This document shows positions 17,783-43,481 of a stretch of 64,000 nucleotides of DNA, in pieces; position 1 is the first letter of the stretch; each line of letters begins with the position of its first letter. Position numbers and translations under genes: made by a program. The notes under the pieces were generated by a model. That model did no database searches. It had not been told where the DNA came from and saw nothing but the letters and a program-made list of their open reading frames with translations. Source of the stretch: Planctomycetota bacterium (GTDB lineage Bacteria; Planctomycetota; PLA2); the NCBI GenBank assembly GCA_021776785.1, contig JAJFFF010000004.1:248001-312000 (forward strand). Direction: 5' to 3'.

Positions 17783-17915
17783 AGTGCTTTTCTCCTTCAA
17801 GCGCAACGCGGCCCTGGGCCTCACCATGAAGCACGCTGCAGCGAAACGCCGTGATTTCTAACTGTTTCAATCGCGCGGCACGGCGAAAGCGAACACTTTT
17901 AAGTTCGAAAATCTG

Positions 17916-17921
17916 TATACT
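17916..17921 (+). promoter_or_regulatory. Candidate -10 element (TATACT)
   Basis: TATACT matches the sigma-70 -10 box in five of six positions. Transcription would begin within a few bases of the ATG at 17931, giving an almost leaderless mRNA. No good -35 box is present. The inverted repeat CGAAC-N8-GTTCG directly upstream could be an operator. Confidence 0.35.
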
Positions 17922-17930
17922 TGCGGCGCG

Positions 17931-18500
17931 ATGCAGGACTGGGCTTTCTCAAGCGCGCTTGCGGCAGCAAAACGCGGCGACCGCGAATCGGCACAGTGGC
18001 TTTACGAACGGTTCCGACTTCAGGTCCATGGCCAGGTGCGAGGTCTTTGCAACTCTTATCTGAGGCGGCACTACGACACACTTGACCTCAGCCAATCCGT
18101 TTTCTCTGAGCTACTGCGCGACATGGACGGGTTGGAAGATCGCGGTGAACATGCCTTCGAAAATCTGCTTCGGATGAAGGTCCGCAACAAGATCCGGACG
18201 AAATATCGCAAGCATCTTGATCGCGACGGAAATCGCCGCGGCGTTCCCCTGACGGCGGATGTACCCCAACCCGCGAGTTGCCCGGTGATGGCGGCTGCCG
18301 ACGCAGAAACGCGCGCAAAGTTCGCGATCGCCTTGGCGCGGCTGGACCCCAAACGCAGGGAGCTCGTGCGCCTCCGCCTTGAGCAGGGCCTCTCCTACAG
18401 CGCGATCGCGCGTCGTCTTGATTATCCCACCGCGGACGCGGCGCGCATGCAGCACGCGCGTGCACTCCTGAGCTTGCAGGGGGCATGGTCGACTCGCTAG
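17931..18500 (+). CDS. ECF-type RNA polymerase sigma factor
   Basis: 189 residues. Region 2 spans about 5-85 (YERFRLQVHGQVRGLCNSYLRR and DTLDLSQSVFSELL) and region 4 about 125-180 (RLDPKRRELVRLRLEQGLSYSAIARRL, a helix-turn-helix that binds the -35 element). It is close to the planctomycete/myxobacterial group of ECF factors encoded next to Ser/Thr kinases. No SD precedes the ATG. The following kinase gene starts 16 bases before its stop, so the two are translated together and the kinase is the probable controller of this factor, in place of an anti-sigma factor. Confidence 0.9.
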   Translation: MQDWAFSSALAAAKRGDRESAQWLYERFRLQVHGQVRGLCNSYLRRHYDTLDLSQSVFSELLRDMDGLEDRGEHAFENLLRMKVRNKIRTKYRKHLDRDGNRRGVPLTADVPQPASCPVMAAADAETRAKFAIALARLDPKRRELVRLRLEQGLSYSAIARRLDYPTADAARMQHARALLSLQGAWSTR

Positions 18501-33155: not shown

Positions 33156-33294
33156 TGCCAAGGAGCTTCGCACGCGCCGTGCCGCTGGCATTCGGTGTCG
33201 GATTCTCTCGAAACGAAGCTCCCAAAAAGCGCAGAATAGTCACCAAGACTTGAATCCGATGCAACGCACAGGACACGACGGGAACTTCGTCAGT

Positions 33295-36200
33295 ATGAAG
33301 GGAGATGGTTCCCGTCCCGACGAGAGTCTGCCGGAGCTGGCTGGGCACCGCGGTTTTGTCGAGGCATTGGCGCGACGGCTGGTGTTTGACCAGCACCTCG
33401 CCGAAGACCTCGTGCAAGAGACGCTGCTCGCCGCGATGCAAAATCCGCCGCGTGAGAAACGCGCACTGCGCGCGTGGCTGGCCCGAGTCGTTCGCAATCT
33501 TGCGTACCGCACGCTGCGCACACGCGCGCGTCGCGATCGGCGCGAGAAACTCGCCGCTCGACCGGAAGCGACGCCGCCGACCGGCGACTTGGTCGCGCGC
33601 CTGGCTTGGCACCGCATCGTCGTCGATACGGTGTTGACGCTTCCGAACGACATGCGCGAGACGCTGATCCTTCGTTTTTACGAGGATCTCACGCCGAAAG
33701 AGATCGCGGAGCGCCAAGGCATCCCGTCGGCAACCGTTCGCTCGCGACTCAAGCGCGGACTCGCTCTGATGCGCGAGCGCCTCGATGACACGCGTGGCGG
33801 ACGCAAAGCGTGGACGCTGGGACTGATCCCGCTTCTTTTCCCGAGCCAACCGGCCGCTGCGGCGACGGGCGGCGCACTGTTGGGGGTTGCGGCGATGAGC
33901 GCGCAGAAAAAGACCGTGATGGCGGCAGCTGTTGTCTTGGCGTTGGTGGGGGCATTTGTCGCCGGACGATTCGCGTTGCGCAGCGACGCGGACCGGACCG
34001 AACGGACGACGCGCAGCGTGACGTCGATTCCGCAGCACAAGGAGAAGACGGCCCCCGTCACGCCGTCGGTCCCGATCGATCCGACAGCACCGACACTCGA
34101 CGTGTTTGTGCGCGACCGATTCGATCAGCCGCTGACCGGAGCGACCGTCGAGGTCTTGCTCGGTGTCCCTTACCCCGAGCGTGGCCCCTGGTATCCGAGC
34201 GATTGGGCCATGCGGCGCTGGTTGCAGCGATCAAAAAAAGGCACGGTCTTAGGCGCGTTTACGACGGATGCCGATGGGCGCGCGACGCTGCGCGGTGTTC
34301 CCGTCCATGCGATCGACGTGCGCGCGTCGTCGGAGGGGTACGCATCGACGACCCAGTGGGTCTGGCATGTCACCGGCGCGATCACGTTGACGCTGGGGCC
34401 CGGTGCGCCGCTCCGCGGTCAGGTCATCGACCAAGACGACAATCCGGTCCCCGGGGCCGTGGTGTTGGCCGGTCCCGTCCGTCCCCGGGGCAACCTGGGC
34501 GCGAATCCGCGCCCCATCCTCGTCGTGGCGGACGCGGCAGGACGATACGCATTCCCGTCCTTGCCGACGGCCGACCGCTCCGTGTGGGCCGCGTTTCCGG
34601 GTGGAGCTGCGGTGTACATCGCATCGCTTCGTTTTCCCGGAGTCGACACGTTCGACATCCGCCTGCGCCGAGGCGGCACTCTGGTCGGTCACGTGACCGA
34701 CATAACGACCGGTGCACCGATCGCGGGCGTTGAAGTCGTAGCCAGCGAACGCGGTCTTCCGGTCGGTTTCTATGGGCGCGCGATTACGGACAACGCCGGA
34801 CGCTATCGGATTGCAACCATGCCGGCGGGGCATGTCGGCGCGATCGTGCTGACGAAACCGGGTTGGGCACAAGTTTTTGAGACGATCCTGAACGTCGAAT
34901 TGCGCGCCGGCGAGACCGCGACGCTTGACGCGAAGATGCACGTGGGTGCAACCGTGCGCGGACGTGTGATGAGTCCCGACGGACCAGTGGCCGGCGCCGG
35001 TGTGGCGAGCATGCATCAGCCATCTGTCGGCGGCGTCGTCGTACGCAACGCGACAACAGACGAGAACGGCCGCTATGAGCTCCGCGACTTACCGGCAGGC
35101 AACCACGTGCTGGGCGTGGACAAACCCGGATACCAAGACGGTCTGAAGCCGGGCGACATGTTTGGACTCAAAGACAACACAAAACATCCGTCCGTCGTGG
35201 TCGCAAAACCCGGCGCGGAAATCGAGCGCGACCTACATGTGACGGCTGGGAAAATCACGATCGAAGGCGTTGTGATCGGGCCGGACGGAAAGGGGTTTTC
35301 CGGCGCCGCGATTGGAGCTCCAGGGGCGCGCACCAAAACCGATAAGAACGGCGCGTTTTCGCTCGACGGTGTACAGCGACAAAAACAAGGGCGGACGTTT
35401 ATCTGGGTCAGCGTCAAAGGCCACAACATTCGCGGCGCACAGCCTTTCGTACCGGTCGATGTCGAAGCGATGCAAAACGTCCGGATCGAGCTCAAAGTAG
35501 CCGAAGCGCGACCGATGCTGACCGGCACGGTGCGCGATACGACCGGTGCGCTATCAAAGAGTGTTTCGGTCTTGCTCGCACGACCCGTCGGAGTGAGTGC
35601 GCGCAGCCCGACGCGCCATCGCGTGCAGGCTCAACTTTGGAAACAAGCGTTTCGCGCGAAGATCGATGCCGACGGGCGTTACCGGATGCCGCTGCCGCCG
35701 GGGAAGAGCTTTCTACTGCGCGCGGCGGCGCCGGATCGAGCGCCCATGAACCCCGTCAAAATCACGGTCGAACCCGGGCGCGTAGCGTATGTTGTTGACC
35801 TGGTGTTGGAGGGTGGACACACGCTGACGGGTAAAGCACCACCGGGAGCGCACATCACGGCAACGTACGGCATCACCGGGATGCAAAAGTACTACGCGTC
35901 GATGGCCGGGGATCCGCCGCCGCCAATTTCTGCGGTTGCGGACGCGGCCGGCGCATTTTCAATTCGGCACTTGAACGAAGGCCGCTGGGACGTCGAAGCG
36001 GTCGTATCCGGGTTCGCGAAGGCGACGCAGCAAGTTGACCTACCGCAATCGCGCCCTGTTCATCTCGTGCCGCAGCGTTTGGTATCGATCGGCGGTGTCG
36101 TCGTTTACGAAGACGGGGCGCCCGCGGTGGGCGCGCGGATCAACATTTGGGAAGTCGACAACAAAGGCAAGATGACGATCGGCCAAGCGGTGAACTACGG

Positions 36201-37395
36201 TCTCGTCACCGACGATCGCGGACGCTGGCGCAAGGACGGCCTGAGTCCGACGCGGTTCCGGGTCGACGTCAAAGGGACGGCGGCTGCGAATCTTATCGAG
36301 CTCTCCGACAACACAGTGCGCGGCGGCCAGACGTCGTTACGACTGGTCGCGCAACGGGCCATGGTTGTTCGCGGCGCGGTCGTTGACGCGAACGGAACAG
36401 GCGTCGGCGGAGTCCGGCTACTGATCCAGCGTCGATCCGAAAACACACTGGTGTTGGTGGCGCAAGGCGACAGCGCGGCCGACGGAACGTTTGAACTGAT
36501 CGGCGTGCCGCCGGGCATCCACAGCCTCAGCCTCGTCCACGGTGACAAGAGGTATCGATTGGACGGAGTGAAAGCCGGTTCGCAAAATTTGAGAGTCACA
36601 TTCGATCCGACGCGCGACGACTTGGGACGAAGCGATGTGCTCACGCTGTCGGGCGTTGTGATCGACGAAGGCGGGAAGCCGATGGCGAAGCGTAAGTTGT
36701 TCTTATCGCGCGTTGACGGCGGCCTGCTCGTCGGCCGGTCGGCAACAAAGACAGACGCGGCCGGCCGCTTTGCCTGCGTCGTAGCAAGCGCACGCTACCG
36801 CGTGAAAATGGAGCGCGTGCGAGCCCTCGACGCCATCCAGCATGTCCCGCTGCTCGGCGAAGTTAACGCCCGCGCGGGGCTCACGCTCGTCGCCAAGCGC
36901 GGCTTGTCGATTCGCGGCGTCGTAAAAGACGCCGTCGGGAAACCCGTGTCGAATGTGTACGTACGCGCCACCGTGAACCCGGCCAACGGAGTCACTGCGC
37001 AAACTGATCAGTTCGGCCGTTTCGAGCTCGGTGGCTTTGCCAAGGGCGCAGCGTGCGAGGTCATCGTCTGGCGTCAGGACTTTGTTACGGATGTGCGCCA
37101 CGCGGTACCGGCCGGGAGCCGCGACGTCGAACTCGTTTTGCGCCGCGGCCTGGAAGCGACCGGTGTGATCCACAACAGGGAAGGGCTGCCGTTGATGAAA
37201 CGGCCGGTACGCTTCATTTGGATCGAAGACGAGACGCGGCGCGTGTACGGAAAGACCGACAAGGTCGGCCGGTTCCACGTGAAAGGCCTGATTCCGGGTC
37301 GGTATCGCGTCATGGCGCACGATCCGGAACGCGACTATCAAAGTTGCGGCGAAATCGAAGCGGGCGCGAGCAGCGTGAGGCTGACCACGCGTTAG
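33295..37395 (+). CDS. ECF sigma factor fused through a TM segment to carboxypeptidase-regulatory-like repeats (fusion 2)
   Basis: 1,366 residues from ATG 33295, chosen because it places region 2 at the same distance from the N-terminus as in the sister proteins; TTG 33250 and ATG 33259 are possible. Region 2 lies at about 18-80 (FDQHLAEDLVQETLLAAM) and region 4 at about 110-160 (DLTPKEIAERQGIPSATVRSRL). The linker RGGRKAWTLGLIPLLF leads to a transmembrane helix (about 207-225). At least ten extracytoplasmic beta-sandwich repeats follow (for example GQVIDQDDNPVPGAVVLAG, GRVMSPDGPVAGAGV, GVVVYEDGAPAVGARINIW), separated by IR-PPG-type loops. It is divergent from the sialidase-like lipoprotein gene. 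Confidence 0.85.
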   Translation: MKGDGSRPDESLPELAGHRGFVEALARRLVFDQHLAEDLVQETLLAAMQNPPREKRALRAWLARVVRNLAYRTLRTRARRDRREKLAARPEATPPTGDLVARLAWHRIVVDTVLTLPNDMRETLILRFYEDLTPKEIAERQGIPSATVRSRLKRGLALMRERLDDTRGGRKAWTLGLIPLLFPSQPAAAATGGALLGVAAMSAQKKTVMAAAVVLALVGAFVAGRFALRSDADRTERTTRSVTSIPQHKEKTAPVTPSVPIDPTAPTLDVFVRDRFDQPLTGATVEVLLGVPYPERGPWYPSDWAMRRWLQRSKKGTVLGAFTTDADGRATLRGVPVHAIDVRASSEGYASTTQWVWHVTGAITLTLGPGAPLRGQVIDQDDNPVPGAVVLAGPVRPRGNLGANPRPILVVADAAGRYAFPSLPTADRSVWAAFPGGAAVYIASLRFPGVDTFDIRLRRGGTLVGHVTDITTGAPIAGVEVVASERGLPVGFYGRAITDNAGRYRIATMPAGHVGAIVLTKPGWAQVFETILNVELRAGETATLDAKMHVGATVRGRVMSPDGPVAGAGVASMHQPSVGGVVVRNATTDENGRYELRDLPAGNHVLGVDKPGYQDGLKPGDMFGLKDNTKHPSVVVAKPGAEIERDLHVTAGKITIEGVVIGPDGKGFSGAAIGAPGARTKTDKNGAFSLDGVQRQKQGRTFIWVSVKGHNIRGAQPFVPVDVEAMQNVRIELKVAEARPMLTGTVRDTTGALSKSVSVLLARPVGVSARSPTRHRVQAQLWKQAFRAKIDADGRYRMPLPPGKSFLLRAAAPDRAPMNPVKITVEPGRVAYVVDLVLEGGHTLTGKAPPGAHITATYGITGMQKYYASMAGDPPPPISAVADAAGAFSIRHLNEGRWDVEAVVSGFAKATQQVDLPQSRPVHLVPQRLVSIGGVVVYEDGAPAVGARINIWEVDNKGKMTIGQAVNYGLVTDDRGRWRKDGLSPTRFRVDVKGTAAANLIELSDNTVRGGQTSLRLVAQRAMVVRGAVVDANGTGVGGVRLLIQRRSENTLVLVAQGDSAADGTFELIGVPPGIHSLSLVHGDKRYRLDGVKAGSQNLRVTFDPTRDDLGRSDVLTLSGVVIDEGGKPMAKRKLFLSRVDGGLLVGRSATKTDAAGRFACVVASARYRVKMERVRALDAIQHVPLLGEVNARAGLTLVAKRGLSIRGVVKDAVGKPVSNVYVRATVNPANGVTAQTDQFGRFELGGFAKGAACEVIVWRQDFVTDVRHAVPAGSRDVELVLRRGLEATGVIHNREGLPLMKRPVRFIWIEDETRRVYGKTDKVGRFHVKGLIPGRYRVMAHDPERDYQSCGEIEAGASSVRLTTR

Positions 37396-39722: not shown

Positions 39723-42233
39723 TTAGCGGCGCTCGAGCGGCACCTGCACGTCCGTGGTGTTGCCGGACTTCACTTCGAACTCGACCGTCCGTTCGGCCAG
39801 CGCGTCGCCGGCGGGGACGACGCGCACGCGATAGTGGCCCGCCGGAATCGGGTCGCTCACATATACGGGACCGCCGAGCCCCGGCAAGCGATCGGACGTC
39901 GCTGTGGATGACTTTCCTCGTCGCTGCATGACAGACAAACGGACGTGCTTGCCGGCGCGCGTCGAGAACTCGAGCGTGCCCTTGAGCTTGGTTTGGCCGT
40001 CGGGATCGTGCACGTGCAACACGACGCGACCGCCGATGTCGGGACGAAGCGTCACGTTGGAGTGCACACCGCCGACCAAGTCTACGCGCTCTTCGGCGGA
40101 CATGAGGAAACCGCCTTCCCGCGGATCGCCCGGGATGAACTGGAGGCGATACGAACCCGGCTTGATGTTGCGCAACAGGTATCCATCCGCGCTCGCACGG
40201 GCGTGGATGAACTCTGTGTTTCTGCCTGCCACCGGCGTCAACGTAAACAGACATCGGACTGGCAACGGGCCGGCTCGGGGCGCGTGCAACTGCACGACGA
40301 GCGTGGCCTTTTGCGTCGCGGGTTCGAGCCCGACCGAAACTTGCTGCCGCTGCCCTGCATTCACGGAAGTGAAGCGGTGTTCCTTTTTCTCGTACCTTTT
40401 CGCCGAGATCTCCAGTACGTACGACGCCTCTGCCCCGACCATAAAGACCGAGCGTCCGTCGGCGTCGGTCGTCACACTCGACGCGAACGTTGCTCCGCCC
40501 CGATGCTCGGTCACAAACACCGTTGCGCCATCGACGGGTTGACCCTCTCCCGCCACCAGCAGTTCGATCGCTACGACCGGAACTTCGAAGTCAACGCCCT
40601 CGGCCGGCGCGGTCACGACCCGGCGATAACGCGCGCCGCCGTCTGCTTGAAACGTACCGAAGTGGGCCGACGGCACCGATGCCACCTCGATCTGATACTC
40701 GCCCGCCGTCAGGCCAGCGATTTCGTAGCGGCCCTCGGCGTCAGCTTTCGCGTTGGTGACGCTCAACTCAATCCGGTCGGGAGCCCAGAGCAACTCGTCT
40801 TTCGCGTCCGGGATGCTGAGCTTGTGTCCTGGCGCGCGCCGCCGCGCTAAAACGTCCGCGCCGGCGTGGCCTCGCGCATCGACACCGGTCACGCGTCCGC
40901 GGACGCGCTCGCCTAACGCGAGATCGACGGCCGGCGCTTCGGTCCGCAGACCCCGGACGCGAACCGTGCGCATTGCGGGCCGAACGCGCCTCTTGTGCAA
41001 CACGACGAGGTAGTCCCCTTCGTCCTCGAATGCAAGCGCGTAGTGACCATCAGCATGGACGGTCGCCGTCGCGATCGCTGTCTCTTCGGGGACTCCGTTG
41101 CGCAACCGGAAGCCAGCGACGAAAAGACCGGCCTCTTCGCCGCGCGGGCCGCGCGCGACACCGACGACAACGCGCGCACGGCGCAGCGTCACTTCAAACC
41201 GCGGCAACGACGGCCGTTCGTCGCGCTGCTGAACCGTCAGACGACGCTTCGCGACGACGTAGCCGTCCGCTACCGCGCTGACCGAAACTTCGGTAGGCGG
41301 ATCGGATTCGAAGAGCGAGCCGACGTCCACGGTCTCTTGCCGGCCCACGACGATGGGCGCCTCGACTTGATTCGCGCCAGCCGCGACCGTCAACGTCACG
41401 GGCACCGCTGCGCCTTCCTCCAAGTGGACGACGACAAATAGACCGACATGCGGCGCTCGCGTTTCGTCGGGCGGCGTTGTTTTCTCTTCGGGCGCCGGCG
41501 TGTGTGCCGCGCGCTCGCGCACAGGCGGCGCATCCGAGTCCGCGGGCACGGCCCCGCGCGTGCGCGGACTCGACTTCACACCGTCGTCCCAGAGAAGGTA
41601 TCCAAGCCCCGCGATCAGCAACGCGACCACACCCCAAAGTACTTTCGACTTCACAAAAAACGCTCCTGTCATGAGGACCGGCGTCGCGGCGGCCGCGTGC
41701 GCCGGGACCACCCACGGCAACAACGCAAGGCACCACGCACGGCGATTCCCGTGCGTTTGATCGAGATGTCCACGAAGCTCTAAGAGGCCGCGCTGCAGGC
41801 GCGACCGCACGGTCGATCCCGACACGCCAAGTTGGCGCGCGATCTCACGCGGCGGCAAGTCGTCGTAGAAGCGAAGTAGGAGTGCGGTGCGATACGGCTC
41901 GCGCAAGGCGAGCACGCCTCGCACCACCTCCCGCCGGGCGGATTCCGCGGCGACGATGTCGGCCGTCGGCCGCACATAGTCCGCCGCCGCGACCCGCGCT
42001 TCCCGCTTGGAACGCCGTCCTTCGGTGCGCCGCACTTTGCGCGCGAGATTGGAAACGACACGGGCCAGCCACGGCCGCAACGCGGACGGTTCCGTCGGCC
42101 CGCCGCGCAAAGCCGCGAGGTAGGCCTCCTGCACGACATCGTCCGCATGACCCGGGTCGTGCAAAAGCGCAAGCGCGAGACCACGCAAAAAGGGGCCGTG
42201 CTGAAGAAGAAGTTCGGTAGACACTCGATTCAT
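39723..42233 (-). CDS. ECF sigma factor fused through a TM segment to carboxypeptidase-regulatory-like repeats (fusion 3)
   Basis: 836 residues. Region 2 lies at about 10-75 (HADDVVQEAYLAALRGG) and region 4 at about 105-155 (DLPPREIARQLGVSGSTVRSRL). The linker HGNRRAWCLALLPW leads into a transmembrane helix (about 198-214) and an acidic/Pro-rich stalk. The extracytoplasmic part has about four to five beta-sandwich repeats (GRVTGVDARGHAGADVLA, DADGRSVFMVG). It shares its domain order and linker motif with the proteins at 27970 and 33295, though its repeat region is shorter. Divergent from the tandem-UGA selenoprotein gene across a 180-base gap. Confidence 0.85.
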   Translation of the reverse strand: MNRVSTELLLQHGPFLRGLALALLHDPGHADDVVQEAYLAALRGGPTEPSALRPWLARVVSNLARKVRRTEGRRSKREARVAAADYVRPTADIVAAESARREVVRGVLALREPYRTALLLRFYDDLPPREIARQLGVSGSTVRSRLQRGLLELRGHLDQTHGNRRAWCLALLPWVVPAHAAAATPVLMTGAFFVKSKVLWGVVALLIAGLGYLLWDDGVKSSPRTRGAVPADSDAPPVRERAAHTPAPEEKTTPPDETRAPHVGLFVVVHLEEGAAVPVTLTVAAGANQVEAPIVVGRQETVDVGSLFESDPPTEVSVSAVADGYVVAKRRLTVQQRDERPSLPRFEVTLRRARVVVGVARGPRGEEAGLFVAGFRLRNGVPEETAIATATVHADGHYALAFEDEGDYLVVLHKRRVRPAMRTVRVRGLRTEAPAVDLALGERVRGRVTGVDARGHAGADVLARRRAPGHKLSIPDAKDELLWAPDRIELSVTNAKADAEGRYEIAGLTAGEYQIEVASVPSAHFGTFQADGGARYRRVVTAPAEGVDFEVPVVAIELLVAGEGQPVDGATVFVTEHRGGATFASSVTTDADGRSVFMVGAEASYVLEISAKRYEKKEHRFTSVNAGQRQQVSVGLEPATQKATLVVQLHAPRAGPLPVRCLFTLTPVAGRNTEFIHARASADGYLLRNIKPGSYRLQFIPGDPREGGFLMSAEERVDLVGGVHSNVTLRPDIGGRVVLHVHDPDGQTKLKGTLEFSTRAGKHVRLSVMQRRGKSSTATSDRLPGLGGPVYVSDPIPAGHYRVRVVPAGDALAERTVEFEVKSGNTTDVQVPLERR

Positions 42234-42413: not shown

Positions 42414-43481
42414 ATGAGAACAGCCCTCCTCCTCGCGTTCGCGGCTGTCTTGCCGGGAACCGCGTTCGCCGCCAACGGCGAATTGCAATGGAACTACGAC
42501 GGACACGCGCAACTCCCGGACGCCGCTACGGACGCGAAGCGATCCGGCAAGCGACTGCTGGTCGGACTTGCCGGCTCTCCGTCGTGATGAGGCTTCATCC
42601 AGTTCGGGAGCGGTCCGCTCGCGAAACTCCTCAACGATAAAAAAGTAGTTACGGCCGCACAGGCCTACATAACGATCCGCGTGCGCGTCCCGGAGGCGTA
42701 CCTCCTTCTCAAGCAGTACGAAACAACGCGCCCCGGTCTTCTTGTTCTCGACGCGGATGGGCGACGCGTGGATTCGATTCCGCTCCCCGGCATGGGTTCG
42801 CCGCGCATCGCGCCCCGAGAGATTGCGCGCCGCCTCGACGTTGCTAAGAAATCACCGGCGATCGAGCACTGGCGTTTTACAGCCAACGGGTCCGACGAAG
42901 CGCTTCAACAGCTACGCGCCACGCTGTCGCAACACGACGGCGTGCAAGCCGTATCCATGGACGCAACGACGTTTCGCGTCAAGGTAAAGGCGACCGCGCT
43001 GGCGCCGGACAAGCTCACGGCCTACGCCAAGACCGGCAAGGTGGCGATCACGATCCAGGAGCCTGTCGTCGTGCAGTTCGCGACCGCCGATAGCGCCTCG
43101 GAGGACAGCGTCACGAAAGACAACACCACCGAGGCCGTAGACGCCGTGCGCGCTCTCGCGGGCACATGGCATACGAGCACCAAGCCGCATCTCCGCGCGT
43201 ACGTAACCGGTCTCTTTTTGCAACCGGCGGCGTTGCACAAGGCCGCGGGCCCCTGCGACGTCGAAGAACGCACGTTCGACCTTCCCGAAATCCCGAAGGG
43301 GGGCCCGGGTAGCCGCGTGGCGATGGCGCCGCTGGCGGTCCCCGGCGTGCTCTCAATTCACACCGACATTTTCAACGAGAGACAAACCGTCATCGGTCGG
43401 CGCGGCCACGTCGCGTGGAAAGCGGTCATCGAGTCATTCGAAAAAGCCGGCTGCAAGGCCAAAGCGCGCCCGGAGCGGTAG
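42414..43481 (+). CDS. Secreted thioredoxin-fold protein with tandem UGA codons (candidate double selenoprotein)
   Basis: The frame from ATG 42414 has a signal peptide (residues 1-19, LLLAFAAVLPGTAFA) and KRLLVGLAGSPS, then TGA-TGA at 42585-42590, then runs open to 43481 in the same frame. Read through, it is 355 residues with Sec58-Sec59. After the UGA pair come a helix (GFIQFGSGPLAKLLNDKKVV) and RPGLLVLDADG, the cis-proline strand of a thioredoxin fold. Residues about 150-225 resemble a heavy-metal-associated (ferredoxin-like) domain without its CxxC. The downstream part alone has no SD and no signal peptide, so a separate gene is unlikely. A stem-loop follows the UGAs. The SD is weak. Pseudogenisation remains the alternative. 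Confidence 0.7.
42585..42590 (+). other. Tandem UGA-UGA, candidate vicinal selenocysteines
   Basis: Two adjacent in-frame TGA codons fall at the position where thioredoxin-like proteins have their redox cysteines, after strand beta1. The coding frame is otherwise open for 300 codons downstream. Confidence 0.65.
42603..42625 (+). promoter_or_regulatory. Bacterial SECIS-like stem-loop after tandem UGA
   Basis: The transcript can fold as UUCG-g-GAGCG-GUC-CGCUC-g-CGAA: nine base pairs with one G-G mismatch. It starts 12 bases after the second UGA. The top, GAGC-GGUCC-GCUC, closely resembles the apical GGUC loop of the E. coli fdhF SECIS. The apical loop lies about 21 bases after the second UGA, within the bacterial SECIS range. 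Confidence 0.72.

Follow-up and report, generated by a model that had tools for sequence, protein, structure and literature searches.

A conserved tandem UGA-UGA in a thioredoxin-fold gene of Planctomycetota, very probably decoded as two neighboring selenocysteines

A gene in the stretch of planctomycete DNA analyzed here (64,000 nucleotides, hereafter the window) contains two adjacent in-frame UGA codons, which are very likely decoded as two neighboring selenocysteines (Sec, U). This reading is supported by computed evidence of several kinds, namely the conservation of UGA-UGA among relatives, a Cys-Sec variant, a codon constraint of the SECIS type, the presence of the selenocysteine machinery, the fold of the encoded domain and, in relatives, a link to a second selenoprotein gene. 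Sec insertion itself is inferred, as there are no protein or selenium data.

The window belongs to contig C24 of a 5.0-Mb genome (57 contigs, estimated completeness 92.6%). The gene lies at positions 42414-43481 on the forward strand and, when TGA is translated as U, encodes 355 aa from ATG to TAG, with U58 and U59 at the first (42585-42587) and second (42588-42590) UGA and no further stop until the terminal TAG. An initial annotation had described tandem in-frame TGAs at 42585-42590 in a 355-codon frame, and this was confirmed by the translation. It had also placed a signal peptide before the pair, which we judged likely by eye, without a predictor, for the segment MRTALLLAFAAVLPGTAFA (42414-42470, forward strand); residues 1-21 had a pLDDT below 50 in the model. 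Finally, it had stated that the downstream part has no start signal of its own, and the first in-frame start listed after the pair, GTG at 42681, opens a 266-aa ORF that begins inside the thioredoxin domain, at residue 90. The calculated size of the read-through product is ~38 kDa for the precursor and ~36 kDa for the mature protein, and its only Cys or Sec residues are at positions 58, 59, 281, and 347. When the gene was compared with that of its nearest relative (G002) over 56 codons, from +14 to +70 after the pair, 39 of the 60 base differences fell at third positions, so the frame downstream of the pair looks as expected under protein selection. By eye, two long ORFs elsewhere in the window, at 33250-37395 (forward strand) and 39723-42233 (reverse strand), have starts resembling ECF sigma factors, followed by long repeat-like regions.

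The pair is conserved wherever close relatives were found, with a single variant. When 59 genomes were searched at the protein level, eight, the window genome included, contained a match, and all eight genes had two TGAs, adjacent in every case. A profile of these eight sequences, in which Cys replaced Sec, was then used to search 392 genomes from the phylum, with at most 11 candidates scored per genome. Some match at E<=0.001 was obtained in 56 genomes, and the scores showed a clear gap: at least 88.8 bits was reached at 17 places, in 15 genomes with 11 family labels, and the next place reached 32.6 bits. Eight of the 17 are the profile rows themselves and nine are new. At the homologous place, 16 of the 17 have TGATGA and one, on contig G215:C236, has TGC-TGA (Cys-Sec); no Cys-Cys form was seen among these 17 matches from 392 genomes, though a Cys-bearing profile should favor it. 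Homologs that end at the pair, or that continue in an unrelated way, would have refuted the initial annotation, and the opposite was found, with in-frame continuation throughout. The Cys-bearing profile also served as the search that it had proposed for homologs with CC, CU, UC, or UU at this site (UU, 16; CU, one; CC, none). The gene is nevertheless rare, being present in only 15 of the 392 genomes sampled, and the named contigs bearing relatives are Planctomycetota MAGs.

A DNA pattern consisting of TGATGA plus the hairpin described below was also run over genome contigs of 84,980 species, a set from which the window genome is possibly absent. Of the 25 loci obtained, 14 (with 15 sites) showed the family frame and 11 did not; the titles of the 14 are all Planctomycetota, Planctomycetales, or Brocadiia. 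Thirteen were already among the contigs of the profile search, and one, from PNC 10 (locus L063), was new, bringing the total to 18 members. Because it demands TGATGA and a strict hairpin, this pattern is blind to the CU form, to distant forms, and to the member in G141, which has a 3-nt insertion. Across the 18 members, the first codon is TGA in 17 and TGC in one, and the second is TGA in all. The pair together with the residues before it reads GAETUU in nine of the 18; the window protein has GSPSUUGF. The relatives come in two builds, a UU thioredoxin domain with or without a C-terminal extension, and a PDZ domain followed by a UU thioredoxin domain. The sole CU member found lies at L053:4736-5512 (reverse strand), and its contig also carries the first part of selA (17866-18489).

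Sixteen weaker rows of the profile search were fetched, including all 13 listed with one TGA. Ten of these 13 are thioredoxin-like proteins of the UxxC type (L096, L098-L104, L107, and L108; UGPC, ULAC, UMLC, UGWC, and others), in which the nucleophile codon is TGA and position +3 is Cys, and the other three have UPPS, UGLE, and UNNG.

Downstream of the pair, the initial annotation had noted a 9-bp stem-loop at SECIS distance. The hairpin TTCGGGAGCGGTCCGCTCGCGAA (42603-42625, forward strand) was indeed found, with its loop starting 22 nt after the second UGA and 25 nt after the first, but its nine pairs (4 bp and 5 bp, with a GUC loop and -12.3 kcal/mol) require one G.G mismatch between them. 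Published criteria for bacterial SECIS elements (PMC13188914) ask for a loop of 3-9 nt with G in its first two places, an upper stem of 4-16 bp, a distance of 16-37 nt from the UGA, and an energy <= -7.5 kcal/mol. The check for a bacterial SECIS that had been called for was made with these criteria. Without mismatches they were satisfied for both UGAs in 16 of the 18 members; the exceptions were one member in G126 (G126b, -6.5 kcal/mol) and the window copy, which fails because its mismatch-free core has only 5 bp and -4.9 kcal/mol. Shuffled sequences satisfied them in 128 of 1800 cases, with loop starts restricted to 16-34 nt after the second UGA.

The codons over the hairpin hardly vary. Among pairs of members sharing a residue, codon identity from +6 to +13 after the pair was 0.95 (seven columns, 0.85-1.0), compared with a mean of 0.45 (range 0.25-1.0) in 86 other columns (Mann-Whitney p 9e-6, the sequences not being independent). 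The loop G and U are invariant in all 18 members, and in G141 an insertion of three bases in the 5' arm has its counterpart in the 3' arm, so that the stem there has 7 bp. In the family alignment, 89.6% of the cells of the proposed hairpin were paired, and sliding the structure along the alignment gave no more than 61.1%; the shuffle mean, however, was 87.2%, and the observed value was reached by nine of 500 shuffles. Covariation was also weak: only two pairs changed on both sides, since the stem hardly varies, and this was equaled by 52 of 500 shuffles. Because these covariation statistics are weak, the case for the hairpin rests on codon conservation. Rfam called no SECIS in positions 42500-42720, where it gave one sub-threshold snoRNA match, and a search with RF00031 (SECIS_1) found no match in the window genome; as it found none in any control genome either, this negative carries no information.

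The machinery for Sec insertion was detected in the window genome. It has a tRNA-Sec (70.8 bits) and a cluster of selB, selA, and selD at C27:129483-133766 (starts 129483, 131479, and 132840), scoring 286.8, 495.4, and 365 bits, respectively; SelD itself has a UGA, in the motif GGUAAK. The absence of selA, selB, and selC, which would have counted against the initial annotation, is thus the opposite of what was found. In the 15 family genomes, tRNA-Sec exceeded its cut-off in every case and selA was present in 14; SelA was not found in G036, an 80% complete genome. SelB matched above its cut-off in 234 of the 392 genomes, and the best SelB E value was below 1e-80 in 13 of the 15 family genomes, being weak (E ~1e-59) in G141 and G155.

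The pair is predicted to be the active site of a thioredoxin-fold domain. This domain (residues 23-145; 42480-42848, forward strand) was modeled by AF2 from an 8-row alignment with a mean pLDDT of 93.4, and the PDB structures near the model include DsbH, DsbD-gamma, and AGR2, among others (best E 3e-5). When the weaker relatives are aligned with the family, the first Sec (U1) falls on the nucleophilic Sec or Cys of their UxxC or CxxC motif and the second (U2) beside it, and the resolving Cys at nucleophile+3 is absent from all 18 members. At the loop that plays the cis-Pro role in the thioredoxin fold, Pro is found in 17 of the 18 and Thr in one (G215a). Both marks of the fold, a nucleophile ahead of the first helix of the active site and a loop for the cis-Pro, are present in the predicted model, and the earlier claim of a thioredoxin fold around the pair held on the strength of the model, the PDB matches, and the loop Pro.

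The C-terminal part of the window protein is predicted to consist of HMA-like folds. A full-length model (pLDDT 87.7, six rows) showed alpha/beta repeats after the thioredoxin domain: a first HMA-like ferredoxin fold at residues 150-216 (42861-43061, forward strand), delimited by the order of helices and strands, and one or more further repeats of similar order at residues 218-344 (43065-43445, forward strand), in keeping with the tandem-domain entries 2rml, 2rop, and 2ew9 among the structural matches. With Foldseek, this part of the model matched the tandem HMA domains of CopA (E 5e-6) and ATP7B and individual HMA domains, MerP among them (1osd, TM 0.87 by target over 71 columns), and also other ferredoxin-like folds (RRM, NirDL). 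Pfam HMA (PF00403) gave 16.4 bits over residues 168-200, below its cut-off of 24.8, and the positions of Cys and Sec leave no CxxC metal site in this part.

Relatives provide a further connection with HMA domains. In several of them, a partner gene encodes an HMA domain that appears to be exported and in which UxxU replaces CxxC, followed by a thioredoxin domain. The partner adjoins the UU gene in G155, G126 (where it lies between two UU genes), G204, and G015, and in PNC 10 it is ~1.9 kb away on the opposite strand; its thioredoxin motif is UxxC in G155 and G126 and CxxC in G204, G015, and PNC 10. These genes, with two or three UGAs each, are at L047:4677-5342, L049:3592-4257, and L054:1925-2719 (forward strand), L057:7656-8372 (reverse strand) and, in PNC 10, L063:1595-2386 (reverse strand). 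In G166, a single 478-codon frame with four UGAs (L051:4339-5772, reverse strand) encodes a fused PDZ-Trx(UU)-HMA(UxxU)-Trx(CxxC) protein, the last motif being CAAC. Pfam HMA exceeded its cut-off in two of three partners given (L049 and L054), with L051 just under it (24.1 of 24.8). Two neighborhoods were inspected by eye, with rough gene-picking by GC content of codon places: a MerR-like regulator lies near the UU gene of PNC 10 (L063:6944-7354, reverse strand), and a mercuric-reductase-like flavoprotein and a TVP38-like membrane protein lie near that of G035 (L058:7025-9350, forward strand).

A profile of six partners was run over the 392 genomes and found 35 places above 120 bits in 31 of them, 34 with two to four TGAs; at the remaining one (G231), the match covered the thioredoxin half only, its HMA half being a separate row with two TGAs. 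A regular expression for HMA-UxxU matched 28 of 30 fetched partner loci, the exceptions being L122 and L130. The partner occurs in 10 of the 15 UU genomes against 21 of the 377 others (Fisher p 5e-9). Without the five genomes that supplied rows to the profile, the counts were five of 10 against 21 of 377 (p 2e-4), neither figure being corrected for phylogeny, and when the background for this reduced set was cut to the number of SelB genomes, p was 2e-3. No partner was found by this profile in the window genome at E<=1e-12, and full-length matches were absent from G002, G052, G094, and G215. The hint in the initial annotation of an HMA-like domain without CxxC was thus strengthened by the model and by the HMA(UxxU) neighbors of relatives, although not within the window genome. 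As this genome has no partner and the HMA-like part of the window protein no CxxC, the metal link remains indirect for the window protein.

Other readings of the two TGAs were considered. Two stops in one frame of a MAG assembly could indicate a pseudogene or sequencing errors, with only the N-terminal 57 residues being made, but TGATGA is shared across 15 genomes with 11 family labels, change downstream of the pair is biased to third positions, and the codons over the hairpin are frozen; this reading is very improbable and was rejected. The same verdict applies to two cistrons, the first ending at the UGA(UGA) and the second translated by a coupled restart. TGATG is typically seen where a stop and a start overlap, UGAUG here does overlap an AUG, and the in-frame GTG at 42681 opens an ORF. 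The overlapping ATG (42587), however, is in another frame, whereas conservation shortly after the pair is in frame 0, restart at the GTG would cut the thioredoxin domain, and in the CU member the first of the two codons is a sense codon. A general reassignment of UGA to Trp or Gly in the lineage, which two UGA codons within a frame might suggest, can be practically ruled out and was rejected: two family genes (L010 and L011) and six partner genes terminate at TGA, tRNA-Sec and selA, selB, and selD are present, SelD has its UGA in GGUAAK, and one homolog has TGC at the first place.

The main remaining rival to a metal-linked reading is an ordinary Sec-containing thioredoxin-like reductase without a metal role, in which only one Sec matters and UU is tolerated. 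The existence of a CU member speaks for it, as do the UxxC proteins among the weaker TGA-bearing matches (10 of 13), the lack of CxxC in the HMA-like part, and the missing partner in the window genome. Against it, TGA occupies the second place in 18 of 18 members and the first in 17 with no C-C member, Cys at +3 is missing from all, and relatives show the HMA(UxxU) association. We consider this rival unlikely.

In the reading that we prefer, both Secs would be inserted by the ordinary bacterial SelA, SelB, SelD, and tRNA-Sec under one hairpin, whose loop lies 22-25 nt downstream. U1 would be the thioredoxin nucleophile and U2 would replace the missing resolving Cys of CxxC; with U2 in that role, the pair could alternate between a form with two selenols and a vicinal diselenide form, or hold a soft metal ion in a clamp. 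The partner domains would be of the HMA type, namely the protein's own C-terminal part in the window protein and the adjacent HMA(UxxU)-thioredoxin selenoprotein in relatives. The window protein would then be an exported Sec-Sec thioredoxin handling redox state or soft-metal exchange with HMA domains, and its most likely role would be to keep selenol ligands reduced or to exchange a soft metal such as Cu(I), Hg(II), or Ag(I) in the envelope. That two Secs are actually inserted is inferred, as are the export of the protein, its diselenide chemistry, the identity of the metal, and the reaction with the partner; for the metal link the balance of evidence is only slightly favorable.

A bolder reading, towards which we lean without much assurance, is that some Planctomycetota have an envelope selenium-metal relay, composed of a Sec-Sec thioredoxin made from tandem UGA-UGA under one SECIS and an HMA(UxxU) protein. 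If so, we know of no earlier bacterial active site of the Sec-Sec kind, and the system would allow a direct study of how a single hairpin lets SelB decode one UGA after another. Two UGA codons in a row, conserved in nature and governed by a single bacterial SECIS, make it possible to ask whether SelB stays tethered between the two insertions and what two chances of termination cost, in a process that in E. coli recodes 30-40% of UGA (PMC4513850). The finding would also present a thioredoxin fold in which the second redox residue, again a selenium, has shifted to the position beside the nucleophile, and it ties selenium to HMA metal proteins. Because UGA is normally called as a stop, ordinary annotation has probably split or truncated the UU genes.

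Several known systems resemble parts of this one. Mammalian thioredoxin reductase ends in Gly-Cys-Sec-Gly, a vicinal Cys-Sec redox pair; it recalls the CU member (G215b), but is the C-terminal tail of a flavoenzyme of unrelated fold, with one Sec. The UxxC selenoproteins similar to thioredoxin-7 and DsbD-gamma (L096, L104, and L107) come from the same phylum and share an alignable domain with U at the nucleophile, but have the resolving Cys at +3 and no adjacent Sec, and score 20-33 bits against the UU profile. NF041199 (trx7_PDZ_seleno), listed as CxxU (PMC13188914), unites thioredoxin-7 and PDZ in one selenoprotein, as do the PDZ-type relatives. Membership was rejected, as the window protein and L058 gave no match and four of the five PDZ-type relatives scored 20-40 bits, through PDZ only, against a cut-off of 300. 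NF041115 (UxxU_metal_bind) is an HMA domain with UxxU, like that of the partner protein, and membership concerns the partner alone; it was likewise rejected, with 18-57 bits against a cut-off of 95 and no match for L057, and the partners of UU genes differ in being fused to a thioredoxin domain.

A 2026 prokaryotic inventory (PMC13188914) comprises 119 families or subfamilies, its rows taking in those of Haft and Tolstoy 2025 (PMC12013261), with motifs that include CU, UxxU, and UxxxxU. The UU motif was absent from its table, in which some rows, two-Sec ones among them, have no motif. No bacterial UU family was found in the open-licence literature searched, including PMC13188914, PMC9312934, PMC2398784, PMC12013277, and PMC7539508; within that literature, a bacterial Sec-Sec thioredoxin active site was not found described. 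Consecutive Secs themselves are known, which qualifies the earlier claim that no UU family had been described: the algal PDI_e, with the motif GUGUU, was reported as the first case of consecutive Secs in a selenoprotein, and no bacterial homolog was reported for it (PMC7539508). Like the window family, PDI_e is thioredoxin-like and has two consecutive Secs, but it is confined to single-celled eukaryotic algae (PMC7539508) and has three Secs in all, in a GUGUU motif that the window family does not share. The window family, by comparison, is encoded by a bacterial gene with the hairpin inside the coding region, just after both UGAs.
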